From a virus, in the IMG/VR virus record IMGVR_UViG_3300027833_001866, positions 1 to 31,297 of that record: a stretch of 31,297 bases of DNA. One strand, 5' to 3'. The notes under the pieces were generated by a model. That model was not told where the DNA came from and did not search any database. It saw only the letters and a program-made list of their open reading frames with translations. This document shows, one piece after another, positions 2,464 through 31,297 of the stretch. A program made the position numbers and the translations under genes. The stretch's first letter is position 1, and each line of letters starts with the position of its first letter.

Positions 2464-3071
2464 GTAAAAAGATTATTGATCTGTTCCCAACACCTGTGTT
2501 TAAAACTAACTTAATTGATACTGAACAATATGACGAACTGGCATTGTCAGAGTTAGCCAAATATTTAATGTCAGATGGCGCACCAGCAAATCCTGAACTT
2601 CAAATAGGAGAAGGGGATATGAAAACATGTTACATGGAAGATTGGAAAACCACTAGTTATGTAATTGATGACGATGATGAATTATGTGACGCAATAAATG
2701 CGTCACTATCACAATTTGCACACGCCCAAGGTACTGAGTATGTAAAACTTGCTGATAGTTGGTATACTGTAATGAACAAAGGTTCGCGTATACATCGACA
2801 CAGGCACGAAAGTAATGTAATTTGCGGAACCTTGTTTGTAAGTATGCCAGAAGGCAGTCACGGACTTGCATTTGTTAATCCAACTACTGTTGCTAAGATG
2901 GAAGACCGTGTTAATACTTCAACAAAGTACTCAGAAGCCGCGCACTTAATGGAAGTTAAGAACGGTGATCTGTTAATATATCCAAGTTGGTTAGAACATT
3001 TTGTTCCACCAGTCGAATGTGACGGTCGTGTTACAATTAGTTTTAATGCAGATTATTCGAGGTTTAGATAA
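2460..3071 (+). CDS. 2-oxoglutarate/Fe(II)-dependent oxygenase, TIGR02466-like
   Basis: The 203-residue protein fits the putative 2OG-Fe(II) oxygenase family typified by TIGR02466. Iron ligands are HxH at His114/His116 in the run HRHRHE and the distal His180 in YPSWLEHFVPP. The 2-oxoglutarate-binding Arg is Arg190 in RVTISFN. It starts at the ATG overlapping the previous stop (ATGA), with AAGGAG at 2446-2451 eight bases upstream; the TTG at 2454 is too close to that site. The substrate is unknown. It lies between a glycosyltransferase and a second oxygenase of the same family, consistent with a modification pathway or a duplicated gene. Family call is firm, role open. Confidence 0.8.
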   Translation: MSKKIIDLFPTPVFKTNLIDTEQYDELALSELAKYLMSDGAPANPELQIGEGDMKTCYMEDWKTTSYVIDDDDELCDAINASLSQFAHAQGTEYVKLADSWYTVMNKGSRIHRHRHESNVICGTLFVSMPEGSHGLAFVNPTTVAKMEDRVNTSTKYSEAAHLMEVKNGDLLIYPSWLEHFVPPVECDGRVTISFNADYSRFR

Positions 3072-3658
3072 TGGACGGAGTACACGTAACAGGACAATAT
3101 GGATTGTTTCCAACCTTAGTCGCAACGTACAATTTATTAGACCATCCTGCTTACTCAAAAATTGTTACTGAAGTTAACAAAACAGTAACATCACAGCACT
3201 CAATAATGAAAGACAGTGAATCTACATATGATGAATCAGCTGGCAATAATTGGTTAGACAAAAGTTACTTGTCCGACTTTAGACAGCAGATACAAGACTG
3301 TGTTGATCATTATGCATCTGAATATAAATTGAAGCAATGCTTTATTAAAAATAGCTGGATGAATCGAGTAGGCAAAGGAGGCAGTGTAAGAGCTCATCGA
3401 CACGAAGGCAGTGTAATTAGTGGTGCCTTTTATCCGGTTGCTGATGAAGGCAGTTGCCCGTTAGTGTTTAAGTCACCTATATCTATGTATCGAATGAGTG
3501 AAATATTATTAACTGAAGATTTATATAATTGCTATAACCAAGAAATTCCGTGTGAACAAGGACAACTTATATTGTTTCCAAGTTGGTTAGAACATTATAC
3601 AGATGATAATAAAACTGACAATCGTATTACTATTAGCTTTAACACATTCTATCAATAA
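3071..3658 (+). CDS. Second 2-oxoglutarate/Fe(II)-dependent oxygenase, TIGR02466-like
   Basis: This 195-residue protein has the same plan as its upstream neighbour: FPTLVATYNL near the N-terminus, HxH at His109/His111 (AHRHEGS), a distal His175 in FPSWLEHY and Arg185 in RITISFN. All expected catalytic residues are present. The ATG overlaps the upstream stop (TAATG), so the two are translationally coupled. The neighbour relationship and shared motifs point to tandem duplication, with divergence in the first 90 residues that could shift substrate choice. Substrate and partner are unknown. Confidence 0.8.
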   Translation: MDGVHVTGQYGLFPTLVATYNLLDHPAYSKIVTEVNKTVTSQHSIMKDSESTYDESAGNNWLDKSYLSDFRQQIQDCVDHYASEYKLKQCFIKNSWMNRVGKGGSVRAHRHEGSVISGAFYPVADEGSCPLVFKSPISMYRMSEILLTEDLYNCYNQEIPCEQGQLILFPSWLEHYTDDNKTDNRITISFNTFYQ

Positions 3659-3864: not shown

Positions 3865-4017
3865 ATGTTGACACGTATTAAGAAACGTGTTATACTATAT
3901 AAACAATGGTACAAACAACTCAGGCAACATCCTCACTATGCATGGTACAACTGTGTAGCATGGGCAATACATAATTCAGGCACACACGAACTCGACGGGA
4001 GTTATAGAAAATGGTAA
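3865..4017 (+). CDS. Small basic Trp/Tyr-rich protein, 50 residues
   Basis: The ATG follows the previous TAA directly and the frame runs to TAA at 4015-4017. The product (MLTRIKKRVILYKQW...) is basic and rich in Trp, Tyr and His, with HPHYAWYNCVAWAIHNS in the middle, a composition unlikely for random sequence in a 38-ish percent GC genome. It overlaps the start of the UV endonuclease gene by 7 bases. A consensus sigma70 promoter lies inside the first third of this frame, so the gene and the promoter share the DNA. Function is unknown. Confidence 0.5.
   Translation: MLTRIKKRVILYKQWYKQLRQHPHYAWYNCVAWAIHNSGTHELDGSYRKW
3868..3896 (+). promoter_or_regulatory. Sigma70-type promoter, TTGACA-N17-TATACT
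   Basis: TTGACA at 3868-3873 and TATACT at 3891-3896 are separated by exactly 17 bases. Transcription would start near 3903, about 110 bases before the UV endonuclease ATG. The spacer holds an inverted repeat, ACACGT (3871-3876) and ACGTGT (3885-3890), placed where a repressor could compete with RNA polymerase. The match is by eye. Confidence 0.55.
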
Positions 4018-5114
4018 CACAACGCATAGGCTTTGCATGCAAATACATGCACCCAGATCAAACACAGAAGAAAAAAGTACTAGAAGAAATTCAGCGTCCA
4101 CTAAATACTCGTAGCACAACAGTACAGTGGCTTAACAGGCAAACTGTTGATGTAGCCGAGCAACGCTTGTGGGACATTATGGTCCATAACATTGCCGCAT
4201 ACAAAAAGTTGATTGAATATGTTGGAAGCCTTCCTCCAGAACTTAGAATGGTACGATTGGGTAGCGATGTATTACCTGTTTATACTCAGCGTGATTGGGC
4301 TTATTATTGGCAGCAACCGGATGTGGTCGACTACTGCGAACGAGAGTTTGCCAAAGTCGGAGACACAGCAAGATTACTCGATGTTAGGTTATCCATGCAC
4401 CCGGGGCAATTCACTGTGTTGGCCAGTGATAATCCGGAAATTGTAGATAGGAGCATAGAAGAATTTGAATATCACACCGATGTCATCCGCTATATGGGTT
4501 ACGGCAGACATTTCCAAGACTTTAAGTGCAACGTACACATATCAGGCCGCAATGGTCCAGCAGGTATCAAAGCCTCCCTCAAGCGGTTATCGCAAGAAGC
4601 GCGAAACGTTATCACAATCGAGAATGACGAAAACAAGTGGGGCATCGAACACAGCCTCGAACTTGCAGACGACCTCGCACTTGTCCTCGACGTACACCAT
4701 CACTGGTGCCGTGAAGGAGAATACATACAACCCACCGACGATAGATATAAGCGCATAGTTGATAGCTGGCGCGGTGTGCGTCCTGCAATGCATTACAGCT
4801 ACAGCAGAGACACAGCATTGCCAGAAGGCTTTGCACACGACAGTATGCTACACTTTCCAGACTTGCTAGAAGCAGGACACAAGAAAGGCAAACTACGAGC
4901 GCACAGTGACTACTATCCTAATCAGCTTGTAAATGACTGGGCACTTAGCTTTTTACCTTACACAGATATTATGTGCGAAAGCAAATGCAAGAACCTTGCG
5001 AGCATTGACCTATGGGAACGTCATATAAATACAGTATGCATGCAAGAGAGTGTAATTACAAAGACCAGTCCGACATCAATCAACCTGGCGAAGGCTCCGT
5101 TGATGTTAGCATAG
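4011..5114 (+). CDS. uvsE: UV-damage endonuclease UvdE/UvsE
   Basis: This 367-residue protein has the features of UV-damage endonucleases (TIM barrel, AP-endonuclease-2-like): RIGFACKY at the N-terminus, LRMVRLGSDVLP (about 77-88), RLSMHPGQFTVLAS (about 127-140), YHTDVIRYMG, NVHISG, ITIENDE (about 202-208), LVLDVHHHWC (about 226-235) and a late RAHSDYY. The His, Glu and Asp clusters are those that bind the metal ions. The enzyme nicks DNA 5' of UV photoproducts, starting repair independently of light. In a sunlit-ocean phage this would protect incoming or replicating DNA. Length matches bacterial UvdE. It begins inside the small gene upstream and has its own likely promoter. Confidence 0.92.
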   Translation: MVTQRIGFACKYMHPDQTQKKKVLEEIQRPLNTRSTTVQWLNRQTVDVAEQRLWDIMVHNIAAYKKLIEYVGSLPPELRMVRLGSDVLPVYTQRDWAYYWQQPDVVDYCEREFAKVGDTARLLDVRLSMHPGQFTVLASDNPEIVDRSIEEFEYHTDVIRYMGYGRHFQDFKCNVHISGRNGPAGIKASLKRLSQEARNVITIENDENKWGIEHSLELADDLALVLDVHHHWCREGEYIQPTDDRYKRIVDSWRGVRPAMHYSYSRDTALPEGFAHDSMLHFPDLLEAGHKKGKLRAHSDYYPNQLVNDWALSFLPYTDIMCESKCKNLASIDLWERHINTVCMQESVITKTSPTSINLAKAPLMLA

Positions 5115-5379
5115 TTTAATAATTTGGGAAGCTACTTAGTGACTGGGAGTAGGAAGTTAGTGCGTATCTTATAGAGAGCAAGATCTTTTTCCTGGAGCCA
5201 TGTAATTATAGGTTTACTTTTAATTTGTATAACGTATTAACTTGAAGGAACCAACTGATGGACAAGGTTGGCGTAGAATCCTAAAACTGCCTACGAGACA
5301 AGTTAGTAACTGTTGTTTTTATCGAAGGTTCCCTGATAACAACCGTTATATAAATTGGAGTAAGCCCTTGCTGTTGTAG
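5115..5379 (+). ncRNA. Candidate structured non-coding RNA
   Basis: All frames are broken by stops, yet the stretch is dense in complementary arms. 5' part: CTACT (5132-5136) with AGTAG (5148-5152); ATCTT (5166-5170) with AAGAT (5180-5184), followed by CTTTTT, which is terminator-like. 3' part, closed by GGAA(CC) (5247-5252) with (GG)TTCC (5327-5332): CCAAC (5251-5255) with GTTGG (5267-5271), CGTAG (5272-5276) with CTACG (5291-5295), and ACAAGTT (5298-5304) with AAC/TTGT (5308-5316, two-base bulge), giving a cloverleaf-like plan. ATAAC (5336-5340) with GTTAT (5345-5349) follows. It does not fit a tRNA, tmRNA or RNase P pattern I know. Strand is assumed from the neighbours. Identity is unknown; part of it could instead end the upstream transcript. 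Confidence 0.42.
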
Positions 5380-5667
5380 TTATAACTTATTAATAGGCGT
5401 AGTACTAGAAGCAGACATATTCCAAACCTGCTTCTTTTCTACGCCTTTCTTTTGAGCAAAAACCTTACTATCACAGTTCTTGCATACGTGAAAGTAGTTA
5501 TTGCTTAGGCGTTTAGGATCCATACTACCTCTTGTGCGATCAAACTCTACATCACAATTATCACATCTAAATACACAATGCGTAACTTCACGCTTATAGG
5601 TATGTTCCTTGCCTGTTTTGCTTTTACGCACATGCCGGGTTTGCTTTTTAAATTCTTTTATAAACAT
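5380..5667 (-). CDS. Small double-CxxC (zinc-ribbon-like) protein
   Basis: This is the only minus-strand gene in the window. I start it at the ATG at 5667 (MFIKEFKKQ), giving 95 residues; a TTG 17 codons earlier is also in frame but reads through AT-rich intergenic DNA. The N-terminal 30 residues are strongly basic. Two CxxC pairs (Cys35/Cys38 and Cys62/Cys65) flank a basic segment with RLSNNYFHVC, consistent with one zinc site. Such folds bind nucleic acid or act as small regulators. There is no strong Shine-Dalgarno sequence. Its 3' end faces the candidate non-coding RNA, so the two transcripts would converge. Exact function is unknown. Confidence 0.7.
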   Translation of the reverse strand: MFIKEFKKQTRHVRKSKTGKEHTYKREVTHCVFRCDNCDVEFDRTRGSMDPKRLSNNYFHVCKNCDSKVFAQKKGVEKKQVWNMSASSTTPINKL

Positions 5668-5700
5668 AACTATATTTACATTAAGATTATAAAAACTATC

Positions 5701-5708
5701 GATAAATA
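5701..5708 (+). promoter_or_regulatory. T4-type late promoter box (GATAAATA)
   Basis: GATAAATA differs at the first base from the T4 late consensus TATAAATA and lies 20 bases before the ATG of the IscA-like gene, with AAGGAG at 5717-5722 between. The box sits in the divergent gap between the minus-strand gene and the structural block, where a late promoter would be expected. Confidence 0.45.
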
Positions 5709-5727
5709 TACTTAACAAGGAGTTCAG

Positions 5728-6108
5728 ATGGACATTTGCGTACTAACAGACACTGCAAAAGAACATATTAATACAATATGTAAAGAGAATAACTGCTATG
5801 CAGTTAGTTTAAACCTTAAAGGTGGAGGCTGTGCTGGGTTTGAATACGACTGGGGGATGGTTGACACAAAGGATGACTTACAAGCAGGTGACATAATTAT
5901 AAGCGCCGGCGAGGGCAACTTTAGTGTCGGTACAACGGCAGTAATGTACCTGATAGGAACAGAGATTAATTATAAAAAAGATATAATGGGTGCAATGTTT
6001 GAAGTTAATAACCCTAACGCACAATCAGCATGTGGTTGTGGAATAAGTGTAAATTTTGATGTAGACAAATTATCTACATCAAACAGTAATCTAGCACACG
6101 CTATATAA
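5728..6108 (+). CDS. IscA/HesB-like iron-sulfur cluster carrier
   Basis: This 126-residue protein matches A-type iron-sulfur carriers: LNLKGGGCAGFEY (28-40) with Cys35, and CGCG at 102-105 with Cys102 and Cys104, the three family Cys residues. A-type proteins hold and pass on Fe-S clusters to apo-proteins. Related genes are known in T4-like cyanophages, often near structural genes. Here it precedes the first giant fibre gene by 12 bases, under a late-type promoter box, so it may act in virion assembly or be packaged rather than serve metabolism. The C-terminal 15 residues extend beyond the usual end. Confidence 0.85.
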   Translation: MDICVLTDTAKEHINTICKENNCYAVSLNLKGGGCAGFEYDWGMVDTKDDLQAGDIIISAGEGNFSVGTTAVMYLIGTEINYKKDIMGAMFEVNNPNAQSACGCGISVNFDVDKLSTSNSNLAHAI

Positions 6109-13854: not shown

Positions 13855-16800
13855 ATGTCTGAACAAGAATATATCGTTAGCCTTAACCGTGATGTCGACT
13901 TTACTGCATTTAATCAAGAAATGATAAGTTTGACCGGTGCGGGATTTATTCCAAATAGAACAGTTGAAATAGCAAATGCAAGACCAGGATCACAACGAAA
14001 TACACATTACTTTTTAACAACACAAGAAGTAGACATTCTAAAACAAGACAACCGAGTATATGGAGTTGAGTTACGTCCTGATCTTAGAGACGATATTCAA
14101 ATTGGATTAACAGCAACACAAAATAGTAACTTTAATAAGAATATTGCAACCACCGGAGATTATGTCAACTGGGGGTTACGTAGAATGATTAGTGCGACTA
14201 ATCCATATGTTGGCGTTCTTGTTACAGGAGGCTTTGGGCATACACTATCAGGTGCAGGGGTTGACATTGTAATTCAAGACAGCGGAATACAAGCAGATCA
14301 TCCAGAATTTTTAGACGGATTAAATACAAACAGAGTACAGCAAATTGATTGGTATCAATCACAAAGTGTTGTATCCGGAACAATGCCTAGCAATCATTAT
14401 ACTGACTATGACGGGCACGGTACACACGTTGCAGGCATTGCCGCTGGTAAAACATACGGTTGGGGGAAGAACTCAAGAATCTATGCTGTAAAAGTAGCAG
14501 GATTAGAAGGTACCGCAGACCCAGGAACAGGAATACCTATATCAGATTGCTTTGATGTAATTAAAGAATGGCATAAAGCCAAACCTATTGACCCTACAAC
14601 TGGAGTAAAGCGTCCTACTGTAGTTAATATGAGTTGGGGATATTCTTTAAGATATGCAGGCATAACTGGTGGTAGTTACCAAGGCATTCCGTGGACTGGT
14701 AATCAAAGAGACACTTTAAAAGGTATGACTGGTTCTTATGACGGATTTGGTTATAGACACAATGTACGAGTAGCATCAGTTGATACTGATGTTCAAGAAC
14801 TAATCGATGCAGGTGTACACGTATGTATTGCCGCAGGTAACAGTACTAACAAAATTGATATTGCTACAGGCAACGATTATAATAACTATTATACTAATTC
14901 CAATGGCAATTATTATTATCACAGAGGATCTAGTCCGTATGATACAAGCGCACATATTGTAGGAAGTATTGACTCGGCATATGCACCTGATGGTTCTGAG
15001 AAGGTTTCGGCATTTTCATGTAGAGGCCCGGGCGTTAGTATTAATGCTCCGGGATCGTATATTACAAGTACTACAAGTAATACTAATAAGTTTACTTCTG
15101 GTACGTATCCTCAGAATACAGATTATAAAACTGCAAACATTAGCGGCACAAGTATGGCAAGTCCGCAAATTGCTGGAATACTTTCTACTTACTTAGAACT
15201 TAACCCGGGACTTACTACTGCACAAGGATTAGCTTGGATTAATGATAATGCTAAAACAGGAATAATATATGACCCTGTTTCTGACATTAATAATTACACT
15301 AGCAACTATTCACTATTTGGCGGGGAAAATCGCTTTGCTTTCCAATCATATAGCGATCCAAACGTACTAGCAATAGCCGGATCAGTTAGTAGTGAAGAAG
15401 GAGCAGAGGCTGCAACACCAACATATGTACTTACTTCTTCGGCAAGCGGAGTCGACGAGGGAGGGACATTTACAATAACACTAACAACTGCTAACCTTGT
15501 TAATGGTAGTATTATTCCATATACAATTACAGGCGTAAGTGCAACTGATATCGGAGGGGCTTCGTTAACTGGGAACTTTATTGTCGGCGTAGTAAACTCA
15601 ATTACAATACAGGTCACTGAAGACAATACGTTTGATGATGGTACAGAAACATTTGTATTGACACTTGACAGCATAGCTGACACATTTATTAGTGTAACAA
15701 TTGCTGATACTAGTAGACCTAATCCTACGTACTTCTTAGGAACTAATTTGGCTACTGTAGATGAAGGTGGAACAATAATATTTACATTAACTACAAGTAA
15801 TGTAGCGGCTGGGACTTCGTTAGCATATACCATTACAGGTGTTAGTAGTGCAGACATTGGCGGAGAATCGTTAAACGGTACATTTGTAGTTGGCACAACT
15901 GATTCACTAACAGTTACAGCAACCGCTGACGAAACATCAGAAGGTCAAGAAACTATGACGCTGGCACTAGATAATAGTCTAGCTACAGCAAGTGTTGTAA
16001 TTAATGATACTAGTACTGTGGCGGCATCGTATACATTATCCTGTGATCAAACTAATATTAACGAAGGTGGGCAATTTACTGTATCACTAGCCTACGAAAA
16101 CGGAGTAACCGGAGTACAAATTCCTTGGACAATTACAGGTGTAAGTGCATCTGATGTTGTTGGTAACGTGCTAACGGGTAACTTTATAGTTGGTAGTACA
16201 GAAACTGCAACAATTGAGATTGCAAATGATCTTACAACTGATGGAGAAGAAACTCTTCAATTTACTTTAAACAATTATCCAACTACATTTATCCAAGTTG
16301 TAATAGCTGATACTAGTCTTGATATTGTATCAGGAACAACTCAATTTACTACAGCTGGTTCTGGTACATTTGTTGTACCAGCAGGCGTTACTAACATAGG
16401 TTTTATGGGGATCGGTGGAGGTGGTGCAGGTCCTGGATCAGCACCTGGATCTTTTTCATCAGGAGGCGGCGGCGGTGCTATTGGATTTAAAAACAATATA
16501 ACAGTAACACCAGGTGATGTTATATCATTCTCCGTTGGTGCTGGCGGATCAGGTAGTAGCGGTAATGGTAGTAACACCTCAATAACAGTTAACAGTATAA
16601 CTTACACAGCAGGAGGCGGCATAGCGGGTGCCTCGGGTACACTTAATGGAACTACTGCTGGAACTTTACTTCAAACAGGATCAACAAGTTCCGGCGGAAA
16701 CGTATCAGGTGCTTGGGATGGATCAAGCAGGGGTGGAGACGGCGGCTTATCTTACCGAATGGCATCACCTAATACTGAAAAAGCCGCAGTTGGCGGTGGT

Positions 16801-19800
16801 GGTGGTGCCGGTGGTATGGGCGAAGTTGGCGGCAAAGGCTCGCCACAAACTGTATTATCTGAAGCATTAGGACAAGCCGCTCCTGCAGAAGCAGTAGTTG
16901 ATGGTGGCATTGGTGCTGGATCAGGCGGCGGACACGGATGGACACAGGACTGGACTAGTGGTACAGGTTCGGTATCAGGCGGACGTGGAGGTGGCGTTAC
17001 AGTTACTTTAGGTAGAAGCGGCTTGGGCGGACTAAAACCAACTACAGTGATACCACAAACTATTACTGGTGCGGGCATTGCTAATAACGGCTCAGGCGGT
17101 AATCCAGGCAACGTAGTCGGCACAGCATTGAATTCAGGAGCAGGCGGTGGTGGCACAATGACACACGCACTTGCTAGTATCGATACCGGGGCCAATAGTG
17201 GCATTACTGGAGCTGTAATGTTTACTTGGCCTGGCAATATTGCGGCATACCAATTCCAGGCTCCAAATTATACATTGACTTCTAACAAATCAGAAGTGTT
17301 TGAAGGCACTAGCTTTACTACAACATTAACAAGTAATTTAACAGTTACGAATACATTAGTGCCGTATACTATCACAGGTGTTAGTAGTGCAGATTTAGGA
17401 AACGAATCTTTAACAGGAACATTAACACCAACTACTAATACTAAAACATTTAATGTAACTGCTGACGATACAGTAGATGGCGAAGAAACATTTGTGATGG
17501 CAACTGATAACGGAGCAACAAGTGTTAGTGTAGTAGTTAATGACTCTTCAACTGGCTTAGAAAATCAATATTCTTCATCAGTAGTTTCGGCAGGGACGGC
17601 GGCATATTCCTTTACATCAGGTACAGATCGTAATGGATCGTTTACTGGCAATAATCCTTACATAGTACTAAACACCAACGACACAATGACATTTAATGTT
17701 AATGCTTCAGGACATCCGTTTTACATAAAAACTGCTCCGGGCACTGGTACAGGTAATTTAGTACCAGATGTTCCTGGCAACGGAACACAAGTAGGCGCAG
17801 TAACATATACACCAAGAACAGCAGGTAAGACATATTATCAATGTTCTATACATTCATTAATGAACGGAACAATATATACAAACAGTGGTTTCTGGGCTAG
17901 TTCGACTGATTACACTTTATCAATAGAAACTGTTGTAAAAGTTGCACAAGATAGTTTAGACAATACTATTGCTATATCATATGCGTTATCTAACGGAGGA
18001 GTGTACACATACTCTATCTACAAGTTAAATATGTTTGGTGATCTAGTATGGCGTAAAACTATGCCGGTTGATGGATGGTTAACGTCATTTGTAATTGACC
18101 AGACTGATAGTAATGTTATTTACGCAGTAGGCGGCGTAGGTCCTAACTGGAAAGACGGCGATGCTCCTACATATACATCAGGAATGGTATATAGTAAAGG
18201 TATTGCATTAAAAATAGATGCAACTGGTGCCACGCAATGGATTAATAGTTATGCAGTTACTAACGGTGACGTACATACGTATTTTACAGATATTAACTTA
18301 ACAACAATTCCAGCAGGCGCTTGGGCTGACACAGTTATATTAGATGTTATTGGTGTAAATCTAGATGCAGTAAACGGCCCAAGTGTAATTGACCAACGTG
18401 GATCGTCTTGGCATAGACTTAATCCTACAAACGGACAAGATGATATATTTGACGGCGCGGCAATATCTGCTAATGATGTAAACTTTCCAGCAGTAATACC
18501 AACTAACCAATTTGGCATACGATTTGAACATATTGAATATAAATCATTTAGTGCGCCAAACGCAGGTAACTTTTATTATATAGCAGGTACACACTTAGGT
18601 AGATCACCTCAACAAGTTAGCGGGCTGTGGGTACAGCAAAAAGATAAAATCTTTGTAAGAATATACGAAATGGGGTCAGATGGTATACCGGTTGAATATA
18701 AAGAAGTTACATTTGAAAATAAAGATGAAACAACTGATATAGTACTTGCAGGAATGGATGTTGCAGACGAATACACTGTTCAAGAAGAAGTTGAAGGTGT
18801 AATGACTGATGTAATAAAGTCACCGGGAATAGTTATAGCACTAAACGATACATCATCTGGCAAGGGTGAAATATTTAGAATACAGCATCAAGCCAACAGT
18901 ATAACTCAACGTATTGGAGTATACGATTCAAGTGTTGATATCCAAAAGAATGTATTAACAGATATTAAAATTGATGGTACAAAGATTTATATTTCAGGAC
19001 AGCAAAAAGAAGATAATACAAGTAACGACTTTACTCCGTATACAGGAGCACTTAACGCATTTTATGCCACAATAGATATAGACGATCTAACTACTGCTGA
19101 CAGTAGATTATTACTATCATCTAGTAATACTTTTATGAATAGTATTTGGGTAGATAAAACAGCTTCAAGTGTAACAAAAGCAGTTGTAGGCGGTCAAGCT
19201 AATCCATCAGCTAAGTTAGGTATAGGTAATGGCGCACAGTATGTTGCTGTTCTGCCAATAGGATCAAAAGATCATTACGGAACTGGACAAGGTAATCAAA
19301 GTACAACAGTATCACAAACATACGAAGATTGGGCAATTGCTAAAACAGGATTTGTTGAAGCAAGAACTGCTGAAGAAAGTAATTTTTCAGCAGTAATTTA
19401 TAATAGCTGGGCTGATGCCGAATCTACTTTAAGGGTTCCAACAGGCATTGTAGCTTCAAGTAATTATAGAACACACACAACTACTTCATTGCCAGCATTA
19501 AGTACTGCATCTTCAGCAACTACTTACAAAATGGCATTAGAACCATATAGCCTTGCAGTTGTAGGTGATCCGACATATGTACTAACTAGTAATGCTACTA
19601 TAGTTAACGAAGGTTCAGCAGTAACGTTTACTTTAACAACAACTAACGTAACAGATACAACAAATATACCGTATACTATAACAGGTATTAGTACTAATGA
19701 CATAGGCGGTACTTCGTTAACTGGAAACTTTACAGTGTCAGGCAATACTGCATCGTTAACATTAACATTAACAGCAGATGCGGCAGCAGAAGGCGAAGAA

Positions 19801-20829
19801 ACATTAACAGTTACACTTGATGGTTTAAGTGTATCTAGGACAATTACAATTAACGATTCTAGTTCATCAGTAAGCGGTTCGCAAACTTATTATAGTCCAG
19901 GAACTAATACGTTTACTGTACCTGATGGTGTTACAACAATTGACATTGTAGCAGTAGGTGGTGGCGGTGGCGGTGCAACAGGGCGCTCGTCAGCAGGTAG
20001 TGCTAGTGGTGCCGGTGGCGGAGGTTTAGCTTATGTTAATAACTTATCAGTATCGCCCGGCGATGCTGTAACTGTTATTGTTGGCTCAGCAGGTGTAAAT
20101 GGTAGTATAACAGTTGACAGTCCGCTTAAATTTGTAGATGTTGATATTAATGCAAACGTCAGTTATACTCCAGCCGCAAGTACAATAACTGACGCAACTA
20201 ACGGTGGTGCTAGTATAATTAGAATTGGTGCAGACGTAGTAATTACAGCTAATGGCGGAACAGCTTCTACACTCTCTGCAGGCGCAGGTGGCACATTTAC
20301 TACTAACAGTAGTTACGGTACTACAAGAGGCGGAGCTGTCGGTAGTGCAGGAGTAACAGCAACAGAATCAGGAGCATCTAAAGCAGGAGGAGGCGGCGGC
20401 GCTGCCGGATATGACACTACTGCAAGTGCTGGTGGCGGCGGACTGGGCGGGTTGGGCCTTAGTGAGTTTTATAGATCAACTGGGGCATATCCAGCAGACT
20501 ATTACAAAGCAGGTGCTGGCGGACGTGGAGGCGGTGTAGAACTACACGGCAAAGGTACTAATGGAACTAACGGCACAGCGGCACCTGGACTAGTAGCGTC
20601 AACAAGCCCATTGAGTTTCAATTATAGTGGCGGTACAAATGGTACTAGAGGAAGTAATAGTGCTGACGCAACTATATCAGTAGGCGGCGGTGCAGGCGGC
20701 GGTGCAGGCGGCAGAATTAGGTATCAACAACTTAGTGGTTCATATTATAAATGGTTTTTAAATGGGACCGGTACATCGGCACAAGCAGGCGGAGTTAGAA
20801 TACAATGGGGATTGGGCGATTATCCGTAA
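13855..20829 (+). CDS. Subtilisin-like protease fused to multidomain adhesin, 2324 residues
   Basis: N-terminal ~80 residues resemble an I9-type propeptide. A peptidase S8 domain follows (about 105-500): Asp142 in IQDSG, His188 in DGHGTHVAG, oxyanion Asn329 in AAGN and Ser433 in GTSMASP, so the catalytic set is complete. Then come three Calx-beta-like repeats (about 523-823), a glycine-rich domain (825-1130), a fourth repeat (1138-1235), a cupredoxin-like domain (about 1240-1342; His1287, Cys1330, His1333, Met1336), a propeller-like region with LDATGxxxW-type strands (1345-1890), a fifth repeat (1906-2003) and a second glycine-rich domain to the end. No signal peptide. Position between fibre genes implies a virion component that may cut host surface protein or mature other fibres. 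AAGGAG at 13840-13845 supports the start. Confidence 0.85.
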   Translation: MSEQEYIVSLNRDVDFTAFNQEMISLTGAGFIPNRTVEIANARPGSQRNTHYFLTTQEVDILKQDNRVYGVELRPDLRDDIQIGLTATQNSNFNKNIATTGDYVNWGLRRMISATNPYVGVLVTGGFGHTLSGAGVDIVIQDSGIQADHPEFLDGLNTNRVQQIDWYQSQSVVSGTMPSNHYTDYDGHGTHVAGIAAGKTYGWGKNSRIYAVKVAGLEGTADPGTGIPISDCFDVIKEWHKAKPIDPTTGVKRPTVVNMSWGYSLRYAGITGGSYQGIPWTGNQRDTLKGMTGSYDGFGYRHNVRVASVDTDVQELIDAGVHVCIAAGNSTNKIDIATGNDYNNYYTNSNGNYYYHRGSSPYDTSAHIVGSIDSAYAPDGSEKVSAFSCRGPGVSINAPGSYITSTTSNTNKFTSGTYPQNTDYKTANISGTSMASPQIAGILSTYLELNPGLTTAQGLAWINDNAKTGIIYDPVSDINNYTSNYSLFGGENRFAFQSYSDPNVLAIAGSVSSEEGAEAATPTYVLTSSASGVDEGGTFTITLTTANLVNGSIIPYTITGVSATDIGGASLTGNFIVGVVNSITIQVTEDNTFDDGTETFVLTLDSIADTFISVTIADTSRPNPTYFLGTNLATVDEGGTIIFTLTTSNVAAGTSLAYTITGVSSADIGGESLNGTFVVGTTDSLTVTATADETSEGQETMTLALDNSLATASVVINDTSTVAASYTLSCDQTNINEGGQFTVSLAYENGVTGVQIPWTITGVSASDVVGNVLTGNFIVGSTETATIEIANDLTTDGEETLQFTLNNYPTTFIQVVIADTSLDIVSGTTQFTTAGSGTFVVPAGVTNIGFMGIGGGGAGPGSAPGSFSSGGGGGAIGFKNNITVTPGDVISFSVGAGGSGSSGNGSNTSITVNSITYTAGGGIAGASGTLNGTTAGTLLQTGSTSSGGNVSGAWDGSSRGGDGGLSYRMASPNTEKAAVGGGGGAGGMGEVGGKGSPQTVLSEALGQAAPAEAVVDGGIGAGSGGGHGWTQDWTSGTGSVSGGRGGGVTVTLGRSGLGGLKPTTVIPQTITGAGIANNGSGGNPGNVVGTALNSGAGGGGTMTHALASIDTGANSGITGAVMFTWPGNIAAYQFQAPNYTLTSNKSEVFEGTSFTTTLTSNLTVTNTLVPYTITGVSSADLGNESLTGTLTPTTNTKTFNVTADDTVDGEETFVMATDNGATSVSVVVNDSSTGLENQYSSSVVSAGTAAYSFTSGTDRNGSFTGNNPYIVLNTNDTMTFNVNASGHPFYIKTAPGTGTGNLVPDVPGNGTQVGAVTYTPRTAGKTYYQCSIHSLMNGTIYTNSGFWASSTDYTLSIETVVKVAQDSLDNTIAISYALSNGGVYTYSIYKLNMFGDLVWRKTMPVDGWLTSFVIDQTDSNVIYAVGGVGPNWKDGDAPTYTSGMVYSKGIALKIDATGATQWINSYAVTNGDVHTYFTDINLTTIPAGAWADTVILDVIGVNLDAVNGPSVIDQRGSSWHRLNPTNGQDDIFDGAAISANDVNFPAVIPTNQFGIRFEHIEYKSFSAPNAGNFYYIAGTHLGRSPQQVSGLWVQQKDKIFVRIYEMGSDGIPVEYKEVTFENKDETTDIVLAGMDVADEYTVQEEVEGVMTDVIKSPGIVIALNDTSSGKGEIFRIQHQANSITQRIGVYDSSVDIQKNVLTDIKIDGTKIYISGQQKEDNTSNDFTPYTGALNAFYATIDIDDLTTADSRLLLSSSNTFMNSIWVDKTASSVTKAVVGGQANPSAKLGIGNGAQYVAVLPIGSKDHYGTGQGNQSTTVSQTYEDWAIAKTGFVEARTAEESNFSAVIYNSWADAESTLRVPTGIVASSNYRTHTTTSLPALSTASSATTYKMALEPYSLAVVGDPTYVLTSNATIVNEGSAVTFTLTTTNVTDTTNIPYTITGISTNDIGGTSLTGNFTVSGNTASLTLTLTADAAAEGEETLTVTLDGLSVSRTITINDSSSSVSGSQTYYSPGTNTFTVPDGVTTIDIVAVGGGGGGATGRSSAGSASGAGGGGLAYVNNLSVSPGDAVTVIVGSAGVNGSITVDSPLKFVDVDINANVSYTPAASTITDATNGGASIIRIGADVVITANGGTASTLSAGAGGTFTTNSSYGTTRGGAVGSAGVTATESGASKAGGGGGAAGYDTTASAGGGGLGGLGLSEFYRSTGAYPADYYKAGAGGRGGGVELHGKGTNGTNGTAAPGLVASTSPLSFNYSGGTNGTRGSNSADATISVGGGAGGGAGGRIRYQQLSGSYYKWFLNGTGTSAQAGGVRIQWGLGDYP
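15421..16320 (+). repeat. Three tandem ~300-base Calx-beta-like repeats in the protease-adhesin
   Basis: Units start near 15421, 15721 and 16024 and code for about 100 residues each, with the pattern YxLT...V(D/N)EGG...F-x-x-x-L...(P/A)(Y/W)TITGVS-x-x-D...G-x-(L)-x-G-x-F-x-VG...(T)-x-x-D...E(E/Q)-T and a final (A/N)DTS. Two further copies lie at about 17266-17560 and 19570-19863 in the same gene. Calx-beta folds in adhesins often bind calcium. The copies are protein-level similar rather than DNA-identical, so the array is not recent. Confidence 0.8.
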
Positions 20830-28993: not shown

Positions 28994-29904
28994 AAGAACT
29001 ATGGGTAGAGAAGTATCGTCCTAATACAGTAAATGGTTATGTATTTAAGGATGACGCACAACGTAACCAGGTAAACACTTGGATTAAAGAAAAGACTATT
29101 CCGCATTTGTTGTTTAGCGGCAATGCAGGCATTGGTAAAACAACGCTTGCTAAATTGCTGTTTAATGAACTTGAAATTCAAGACTTAGATATTTTAGAAA
29201 TTAACGCAAGTCGTACAAACTCAGTAGATGATGTACGTGACAAGATTGTAAACTTTGTACAAATGATTCCGTTTGGTGACTTTAAAGTTGTACTACTAGA
29301 TGAGGCTGATTACTTGTCGCCGAACGCACAGGCAGCACTACGTGGTGTAATGGAAGAGTATCATACAACAGCACGTTTCATTCTAACGTGTAACTATCCT
29401 AACAGAGTTATTCCAGCTATCCACAGTAGATGTCAAGGCTTTCATATTGCTAAGATTGACCAAACTGAGTTTACAGCAAGAGTTGCAGAGATTCTTATTA
29501 CAGAAGGTGTAACTCCGGATTTAGATACACTTGACACTTATGTAAAAGCAACATATCCTGACTTGCGTAAGTGCATCAACACAGTACAAATGAATGTACA
29601 AGACGGTAGCTTGCTGAAACCTAATGAAGGCGATACAGGCCAAGCTGATTGGAAACTTGATATGGTCGAACTGTTTAAAGCAGGTAAGATCACAGAAGCA
29701 CGTAAATTACTTTGCGGAACAGTACGTTCAGAAGAGATGGAAGAAGTATATCGTTGGTTGTATGACAACATTGAATTGTTTGGCGATGCCGCACAACAAG
29801 ATACTGCGGTATTAACTATTAAACAAGGACTAGTTGATCATACATTAGTTGCAGACCCGGAGATTAATTTGGCGGCAACGCTAATAAGATTGGCAAGAAT
29901 TTAA
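28990..29904 (+). CDS. Sliding-clamp loader large subunit (T4 gp44-like)
   Basis: The product of 304 residues starts at the ATG overlapping the small membrane gene; MKELWVEKYRP is the usual clamp-loader N-terminus, so the longer frame from 28924 is not needed. AAA+ features: Walker A GNAGIGKT (44-51), Walker B LLDEAD (102-107), sensor 1 TCNYPN (133-138) and the SRC motif (146-148). With gp62 it would load the gp45 clamp onto DNA; neither partner is in this window. T4 gp44 is 319 residues, so the length fits. Confidence 0.93.
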   Translation: MKELWVEKYRPNTVNGYVFKDDAQRNQVNTWIKEKTIPHLLFSGNAGIGKTTLAKLLFNELEIQDLDILEINASRTNSVDDVRDKIVNFVQMIPFGDFKVVLLDEADYLSPNAQAALRGVMEEYHTTARFILTCNYPNRVIPAIHSRCQGFHIAKIDQTEFTARVAEILITEGVTPDLDTLDTYVKATYPDLRKCINTVQMNVQDGSLLKPNEGDTGQADWKLDMVELFKAGKITEARKLLCGTVRSEEMEEVYRWLYDNIELFGDAAQQDTAVLTIKQGLVDHTLVADPEINLAATLIRLARI

Positions 29905-30509
29905 TGGCAGAGTTAAACATCACAGCCGAAATGGACGGCTTCATAGGAATTTTTGATAATGTATTTGAAGACGAATATCTTGATGAGCTTATTAAGTATT
30001 TTAATTCAAAAGACGGTATGCAATTTGTAGAACCAACAACTGATCGTATTCCTAGTACTGATAGAGATATGGACGAACTACATTTAGCAGACCCGTTAAC
30101 TATACAAAAAGTTCCTCCCATGTTTACTGACCATTTCTTTAAACGGTTGTGGGAGCATATATACCCTGCATACAAGAAAGAGTTTGCTGTACTGCAAACA
30201 ATGAAAATGCAAGGCGAAGGCTTAAAGATGAAGCGTATCAAGCCTGGTAAAGGATTTCATTCTTGGCATTTTGAATCATTCGGGGGAACAGATTCAAGGA
30301 AGATTGTAGCACAACTATATATGAATGATATTGACGATGCAGGAGAAACAGAATTCTTGTATCAAAATAAACGCATTGCGCCAAAAAGAAATAGACTTCT
30401 TCTTTGGCCCGCAGATTGGACGCATACACATCGTGGCAATCCTCCTATAGGAAAGACTGATAAGTATATTTTAACAACGTGGTTGGAAGAAACAACTAAA
30501 GGAAACTAA
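29904..30509 (+). CDS. 2-oxoglutarate/Fe(II)-dependent oxygenase, P4H-like
   Basis: This 201-residue protein belongs to the prolyl-4-hydroxylase-like branch common in T4-like marine phages. First iron ligands are His122 and Glu124 (SWHFES; Glu replaces the usual Asp). The distal His is His174 or His176 in WTHTHRG, and Lys187 (DKYILTTW) would hold 2-oxoglutarate. It differs from the two upstream oxygenases at 2460 and 3071 in motif spacing. Substrate unknown. It overlaps the clamp-loader gene by TAATG and is followed by a ferredoxin gene. Confidence 0.83.
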
Positions 30510-30510
30510 T

Positions 30511-30864
30511 ATGACGTATTTAGTAGGTGATAATTGTATTAAGTGTAAGCATATGGATTGCGTAGAAGTGTGTCCGGTAGATTGTTTTTACGAAGGTGAA
30601 AACATGTTAGTTATTAACCCAGATGAATGTATTGATTGTGGCGTTTGTGAACCTGAATGTCCTGCTGACGCAATTTTTGCAGATAATACAATAGAAGGTG
30701 CAGAGCTAGATAAATGGATGACTATTAATCAAAAGTACTCTGAAATATGGCCTGTAATTACTGAGATGCGTCCTGACGATGTTCCTCTAGATGCGTTAGA
30801 ATGGAACGGAGTTCCTAATAAGTACGAAGAGTACTTCAGTGAAACACCCGGAAAGGGAAACTAA
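30511..30864 (+). CDS. Seven-iron (3Fe-4S/4Fe-4S) ferredoxin, FdxA-like
   Basis: This 117-residue protein closely follows Azotobacter ferredoxin I: Cys9, Cys12, Cys17, Cys21 and Cys25 in the first cluster region ([17 protein letters not shown]), and Cys40, Cys43, Cys46 and Cys50 in the second ([11 protein letters not shown]). The tail (KYSEIWPVI and onward) also matches that family. Such ferredoxins carry electrons at low potential. Phage ferredoxins reported in cyanophages are plant-type 2Fe-2S, so this class is unusual. Partner is unknown; the neighbouring 2OG oxygenase does not need one in its standard cycle. Confidence 0.88.
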
Positions 30865-31297
30865 ATGATTAAAGCAATATTAGCGTGTGACGATTACGGC
30901 GGCGTAAGTAAAAAAGGCACACTGCCGTGGCCTAACAATAGCACAGACCTTAAATGGTTTAAAGAAAATACAGCAGGACATATTGTTGTAATGGGATCTA
31001 CTACTTGGGAAGATCCTAACATGCCGCGGCCGTTGCCTAAGCGTACAAATGTACTTGTAACCACACGCAAGGACGACTATCCAGGTGCCGATGTGTATCT
31101 TACAGGTGATTTGAATAACGAATTAAAACATCTTGAATATGCTAATGAAGGTGTTATTACTTGGGTTATTGGTGGTCCTAATATTATCGAACAAACACTA
31201 GGTGTTATTGACGAATTTTATATTAGTCGTATTCCAGGGGCTTATGCATGTGACACATTCTTACCATTGCGTAAGATTGAAAGTTTATTTGAACTCA
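30865..31297 (+). CDS. Dihydrofolate reductase (3' end outside window)
   Basis: The ATG at 30865 follows the ferredoxin stop directly and the frame stays open to the window edge (144 codons). Residues show the DHFR signature: MIKAILACDDYGGVSKKGTL, then LPWP (20-23), the acidic Asp28 of the active site, MGSTTW (44-49), VLVTTRK and VIGGPNI (near 107-113). It reduces dihydrofolate with NADPH and supports thymidylate synthesis. T4 carries the analogous frd gene. Later sequence, including any thymidylate synthase, lies beyond the window. Confidence 0.9.
   Translation, partial: MIKAILACDDYGGVSKKGTLPWPNNSTDLKWFKENTAGHIVVMGSTTWEDPNMPRPLPKRTNVLVTTRKDDYPGADVYLTGDLNNELKHLEYANEGVITWVIGGPNIIEQTLGVIDEFYISRIPGAYACDTFLPLRKIESLFEL

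Follow-up and report, generated by a model that had tools for sequence, protein, structure and literature searches.

The uvdE locus and its noncoding interval

The window, as we call the whole stretch of DNA analysed, is a 31,297-base IMG/VR virus fragment from an uncultured, apparently marine phage of large size, whose tail and replication genes are T4-like. It encodes a T4 gp9/10-like N-terminus (weak score), a baseplate-connector-like protein and a clamp loader whose best identity, 54%, is to jumbo Pseudomonas phages. The window UvdE is less than 60% identical to that of any cultured phage, the nearest being carried by Phage NCTB. Elsewhere in the window, positions 13855-20829 encode a 2324-aa virion-type protein adjoining tail fibre-like genes; its residues 133-467 form a subtilisin-like protease domain (Pfam Peptidase_S8, E 5e-27). 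A 173-aa ORF at 25586-26107 matches only part of the DNA polymerase III alpha subunit (PF07733; phrog_11127) and reads as a polymerase gene that has been split or truncated. Host-like metabolic genes (QueD-like, 2OG-Fe(II) oxygenases, an Fe-S biogenesis protein, ferredoxin-like and dihydrofolate reductase) are densely set at 1044-1493, 3071-3658, 5728-6108 and 29904-31296.

The uvdE gene is followed by a convergent gene (Table 1), whose product belongs to no known family and has no match among cultured phages. The interval separating them is noncoding. No ORF of at least 50 aa is present between the usual uvdE end and the convergent gene, so the original prediction was right that no reading frame survives in 5115-5379, and six-frame translations of the interval matched no protein of the related loci. 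A homologous copy on another viral contig, L099, is likewise without an ORF; substitutions between the two copies show no codon phase (44/112, 35/110, 35/110), and their internal indels are of 1, 2 or 6 nt. The ORF-free length is 361 nt in the window and 386 nt in L099, and the longest such stretch in the other related intervals is 103 nt (77 distinct uvdE-Zn intervals, L099 aside).

L099 is the sole homologue found, at the same site after uvdE. The two copies align over 336 columns with 68% identity, from 5037 to about 5355, and the conserved unit spans about 5037-5368, so the boundaries first drawn (5115-5379) were wrong. The gap between the UV endonuclease and the convergent gene is indeed noncoding, as originally described, but the unit does not start there: its first 78 bases lie within the annotated 3' end of uvdE. 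Residues 337-367 of UvdE (5019-5114) are a 31-residue C-terminal read-through across the predicted promoter into the beginning of the RNA, and most UvdE relatives match residues 1-336 only, ending about 31 codons earlier. Alignment past residue 336 is also seen in a few relatives (L088, L089 and L096). An RNA gene can thus be masked in ORF-based annotation where it lies within what is called as the 3' end of a protein-coding gene.

Table 1. Features at the uvdE locus, with positions in the window
Feature	Position	Strand	Remarks
UvdE UV-damage endonuclease ORF	4011-5114	+	Pfam PF03851, E 8.5e-38
Predicted T4-type late promoter TATAAATA	5024-5031	+	Single occurrence in the window
Conserved structured RNA, two domains	5037-5368	+	68% identity to L099:1690-2030; consensus fold z -6.18
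Domain 1	5051-5210	+	Closed by P1 (5051-5060/5201-5210)
P2	5065-5070/5141-5146	+	Domain 1
P2a	5072-5080/5099-5107	+	Domain 1
P2b	5112-5117/5129-5134	+	Domain 1
P3	5152-5156/5188-5192	+	Domain 1
P3a	5161-5163/5178-5180	+	Domain 1
P3b	5167-5170/5174-5177	+	Domain 1
Candidate pseudoknot, 5' arm GGCUCC	5093-5098	+	In P2a loop; pairs with 5194-5199
Candidate pseudoknot, 3' arm GGAGCC	5194-5199	+	Pairs with 5093-5098
Domain 2	5211-5366	+	Closed by long stem P4 (5211-5219/5358-5366 and 5226-5234/5344-5352)
P5	5235-5244/5299-5308	+	Domain 2
P5a	5251-5256/5266-5271	+	Domain 2
P5b	5272-5276/5291-5295	+	Domain 2; conserved loop
P6	5312-5317/5338-5343	+	Domain 2
Candidate terminator: hairpin, then TTCTTTT	5395-5446	+	-24.4 kcal/mol, z -7.15, 0/200 shuffles
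Convergent small Cys-rich protein gene	5380-5718	-	112 aa; Zn-ribbon-like by eye

Conservation and fold of the RNA

Between the window and L099, identity at four-fold sites of the flanking genes is 56-72%, so the overall 68% is not in itself proof of constraint. The comparison indicates that constraint is visible in the distribution of conservation instead: identity reaches 85% in 20-nt bins at 5076, 5276, 5316 and 5336, and falls to 30% at 5116-5155 (P2b arm), where most of the sequence has been exchanged without loss of pairing. On this evidence, the shape of the RNA is more preserved than its sequence in the second virus.

Folding energy by itself was weak evidence for structure and not decisive, with single-sequence z values of -1.16 for 5115-5379 and -2.25 for 5036-5375; on the - strand it was no better than chance. 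RNAalifold, run on a plain MAFFT alignment of the window and L099, returned a consensus fold of -52.25 kcal/mol, in which 11 pairs have changes on both sides. The two-sequence consensus fold reached z -6.18 on the + strand, where none of 500 column shuffles, which kept the identity and gap classes of the columns, attained the observed value; on the - strand z was -1.65 and the shuffles were not all beaten. By part, z was -4.72 for domain 1, -6.08 for domain 2 and -4.15 for the segment 5115-5379. Column shuffles do not preserve dinucleotides, and the fairer comparison is therefore with coding sequence: ten aligned coding windows from the two contigs, used as controls, gave z from +0.69 to -3.08.

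A stricter test, in which single-sequence folds were mapped through the plain alignment, gave a modest excess of kept pairs, partly because this alignment is 1-2 bases out of register in P2, P2b and P5. The observed number of kept pairs was reached by 25/5000 and 1/5000 re-placements for the two folds, and by 1659/5000 and 675/5000 when changed columns were held fixed. The separate minimum-energy folds of the two copies agree on P1, P2a, P4, P5b and most of P6, and share the layout of domain 1 and domain 2.

Taken together, the two copies indicate that the + strand carries a conserved two-domain fold with compensatory changes, the covariation coming from one comparison because there are only two copies. 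Compensatory changes in a homologue had been named beforehand as the test of the original prediction; run on L099, this test was passed on the + strand, and the proposal of a new structured RNA is well supported. The complementary arms that it described are also extensively present in the sequence. Among the 66 pairs of the helices written out by hand, 41 are unchanged, 10 are changed on one side, 15 on both sides and none is broken, a count that was fitted to the structure, leans towards it and serves as an illustration and not as a test. From the window to L099, P2 changes from CCAGUC/GACUGG to UUAGUA/UGCUAA, P2b from UAGUUU/AAGCUA to CCUGCU/GGCAGG, and P3 from GGAAG/UUUCC to GGGUU/AACUC, with further double changes in P4 and P5. 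In L099 the candidate pseudoknot still pairs, as GGCUCC/GGAGUC; the single difference turns a G-C pair into G-U and affects one side of that pair only, so that the pseudoknot is backed by conservation and pairing, not by covariation.

The cloverleaf originally proposed at 5247-5332 had to be rejected. Its closing arms, GGAACC (5247-5252) and GGTTCC (5327-5332), correspond to GGCACT and GGTTCA in L099, where two of the six pairs break, and the region is occupied by P5, P5a, P5b and P6 instead. A hairpin inside the proposed domain, 5272-5276/5291-5295, is conserved. The prediction had overlooked the putative late promoter and the candidate pseudoknot, and also that the unit begins inside the annotated 3' end of uvdE.

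Putative transcription signals, distribution and searches

The promoter-like TATAAATA occurs once in the window against 4.3 occurrences expected, and ends 5 nt upstream of the conserved unit. The T4 late promoter spans -13 to -6; with this spacing, transcription would start near 5037, the first conserved base. For T4-like cyanophages, NATAAATA has been published as the late motif (PMC2984593), and the window has it upstream of the putative transcribed unit, as in T4-like late units, in the exact form TATAAATA. In the related loci, 134 of the 190 distinct NATAAATA sites are followed at 24-30 nt by the ATG of an ORF of at least 45 aa; control motifs gave 1-28, and the counts are inflated by related contigs. 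At three NATAAATA sites in the window (5701, 20833 and 24746) the distance to the following ATG is exactly 27 nt, and no ATG is found 24-30 nt after TATAAATA at 5024. The late motif thus appears to work well as a landmark in this phage group; in pelagimyophages, late-promoter prediction was attempted without success (PMC7029224). At the aligned place, L099 has GCTAAATA, a weaker match to the motif; CTAAATA sites in relatives have an ATG at 24-30 nt in 19/163 cases. The candidate terminator reaches into the 3' end of the convergent gene, and a weaker hairpin stands at its place in L099 (z -2.55).

Relatives were collected as 80 loci per flanking protein, giving 77 distinct uvdE-Zn intervals, which are filled with small genes in all but one (L099). 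A protein of about 96 aa is typical, a membrane protein of about 54 aa is often present, and a minus-strand Lys-rich protein sometimes. Across the relatives L081-L160, the interval ranges from 187 nt to 2.6 kb, with small genes in changing combinations; the 96-aa protein belongs to no known family. By its contents, the interval is a cassette-exchange site, and the same site in relatives can hold a protein-coding or an RNA cassette. No trace of a decayed 96-aa gene was seen in the window interval. L099 ranks 47th of 63 in nearness to the window in the UvdE tree and 31st of 52 in the convergent-gene tree, and the window's nearest UvdE relatives (L081, L082 and L083) are without the RNA. Since the two carriers stand apart in both trees, either many losses of the RNA or its exchange as a cassette must explain its distribution.

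Searches for known families agreed with the original statement that the element is not a tRNA, tmRNA, RNase P or group I intron. At the gathering score, Rfam (cmscan) matched neither the window nor L099; a cutoff relaxed to E 10 gave only chance-level animal-RNA and CRISPR-repeat models for the window and nothing for L099. ARAGORN and Rfam found no tRNA or tmRNA in the 31-kb window or L099, and neither copy matched the group I intron and RNase P covariance models, nor those of GOLLD, ROOL, OLE, HEARO and raiA (gathering score or E up to 10). The suggested Rfam check of manA, wcaG and IMES was run, and all were excluded, no model matching.

As for further copies, six element-derived pattern scans of 2.9 million viral contigs yielded no copy other than the contig of L099, two pattern scans of 84,980 genomes no third copy, and BLASTN against cultured phages and plasmids no further copy; the covariance models of both domains, run against 50 related phage records, hit the contig of L099 alone. 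Two copies is a lower bound, because exact patterns miss diverged copies. Several candidates were set aside. BLASTN matches in cultured phages (P-HM1 and others) were short, with E 0.3 or worse, and were treated as chance. Apart from L099's own contig, none of the 36 viral contigs with GTGCGTA..GCAAGA fitted the models or the profile, nor did the four contigs with the P2a-loop pattern and the extra pattern matches. A match in L200 (20 bits, E 0.001) consists of one 36-nt hairpin, retrieved because it carries the search pattern, and was taken as chance, and Phage NCTB has unannotated gaps after uvdE that do not match the models. No matching marine-phage RNA came up in a search of the literature. 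Bases 5037-5368 are probably a previously undescribed RNA gene.

Interpretation and comparison with known phage RNAs

Overall, the reading that we favour, and consider fairly likely, is that bases about 5037-5368 are a late, trans-acting phage RNA gene. Transcription late in infection would run from TATAAATA to the hairpin at 5395-5446, and the transcript would measure about 330-420 nt; judged from these two signals, this step is highly probable. The RNA would act in trans as a stable structured RNA and not as a leader. This seems likely, since no same-strand gene follows it in its unit in the window: the convergent gene comes next, and the gene beyond has its own NATAAATA 27 nt before the ATG. 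No copy of the small membrane protein was found in the window, and the fold is intact there, which also favours action in trans. Late timing and the elaborate fold hint that the RNA might work as a scaffold or RNP during virion production or lysis, as proposed for GOLLD and ROOL, a role that we suggest tentatively. It is also possible, but doubtful, that a new family is represented here, of late-made, trans-acting, pseudoknotted phage RNAs carried as a fixed-site cassette among uncultured marine large phages, with a role in assembly, packaging or lysis.

Two layouts in the relatives keep a cis-acting leader as a live, if unlikely, rival, in which the RNA would be the 5' UTR of a late mRNA controlling the downstream gene (as a riboswitch or by protein binding) and the window copy a remnant after gene loss. 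In L099 the RNA stands, leader-like, directly before a ribosome-binding site (AAGGAG) and a 53-aa ORF for the membrane protein of about 54 aa, which begin about 15-20 nt after it; in L083, NATAAATA at the same place drives the membrane-protein gene directly, so that the RNA may have been inserted into the leader of that gene. However, the window copy is followed by no same-strand gene and still keeps its fold and candidate pseudoknot, and in L099 nothing resembling a terminator/anti-terminator switch was seen between the RNA and the gene. Insertion of a catalytic or mobile RNA, either divergent and self-splicing intron-like or belonging to an absent mobile element, would suit the patchy presence in two viruses that are not sisters in either flanking-gene tree, and the multi-domain pseudoknotted fold at one site; yet we hold it quite improbable, given that no group I/II intron, ribozyme or HEARO Rfam model matched even at E up to 10 and that the element has no endonuclease, transposase or reverse transcriptase ORF. 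Lying between genes, it also has no exon to rejoin. Lastly, a decayed gene or neutral spacer, structured by chance, would fit an overall identity close to that of the flanking four-fold sites, but it is made very improbable by the consensus-fold z of -6.2, the sharp conservation blocks, the lack of any remnant of the 96-aa gene that fills the site in most relatives, and the 103-nt limit of ORF-free stretches outside L099 (77 distinct related intervals).

To our knowledge, few phage RNAs of such complexity are known. The phi29 packaging RNA (pRNA), about 174 nt long, has a role in virion production. The late-made RNA favoured here would resemble it as a phage RNA of virion production, which late timing would fit; it differs in showing no match, and pRNA is shorter and from a phage group unrelated to that of the window. 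The manA and wcaG motifs (RF01745 and RF01761) of T4-like cyanophages lie in potential 5' UTRs of metabolic genes (PMC2864571). They too are structured RNAs carried by marine T4-like phages, but the present RNA matches neither model and has no downstream gene in the window.

GOLLD is a large structured phage and prophage RNA of more than 800 nt, whose expression rises during phage lysis and whose function is not known; ROOL is phage- or prophage-encoded, structured, with multiple pseudoknots, of unknown function and often near tRNA islands (PMC12286853). The RNA described here shares with them a phage origin, noncoding status and an extensive, covarying fold with a candidate pseudoknot, the latter seen by pairing and conservation; its predicted late promoter parallels the lysis-time rise of GOLLD. 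Unlike them, it has no tRNA gene or tRNA island nearby, in the 31-kb window or L099, and there is no covariance match to either, nor sequence match to GOLLD; at about 330 nt, it is about half the length of ROOL and well below that of GOLLD. By analogy, it is best read as GOLLD/ROOL-like in kind, and not as a member of either. Its small size (about 330 nt) and its clear, if putative, late promoter and terminator would make it an easier system than GOLLD for asking what role such RNAs have in infection.
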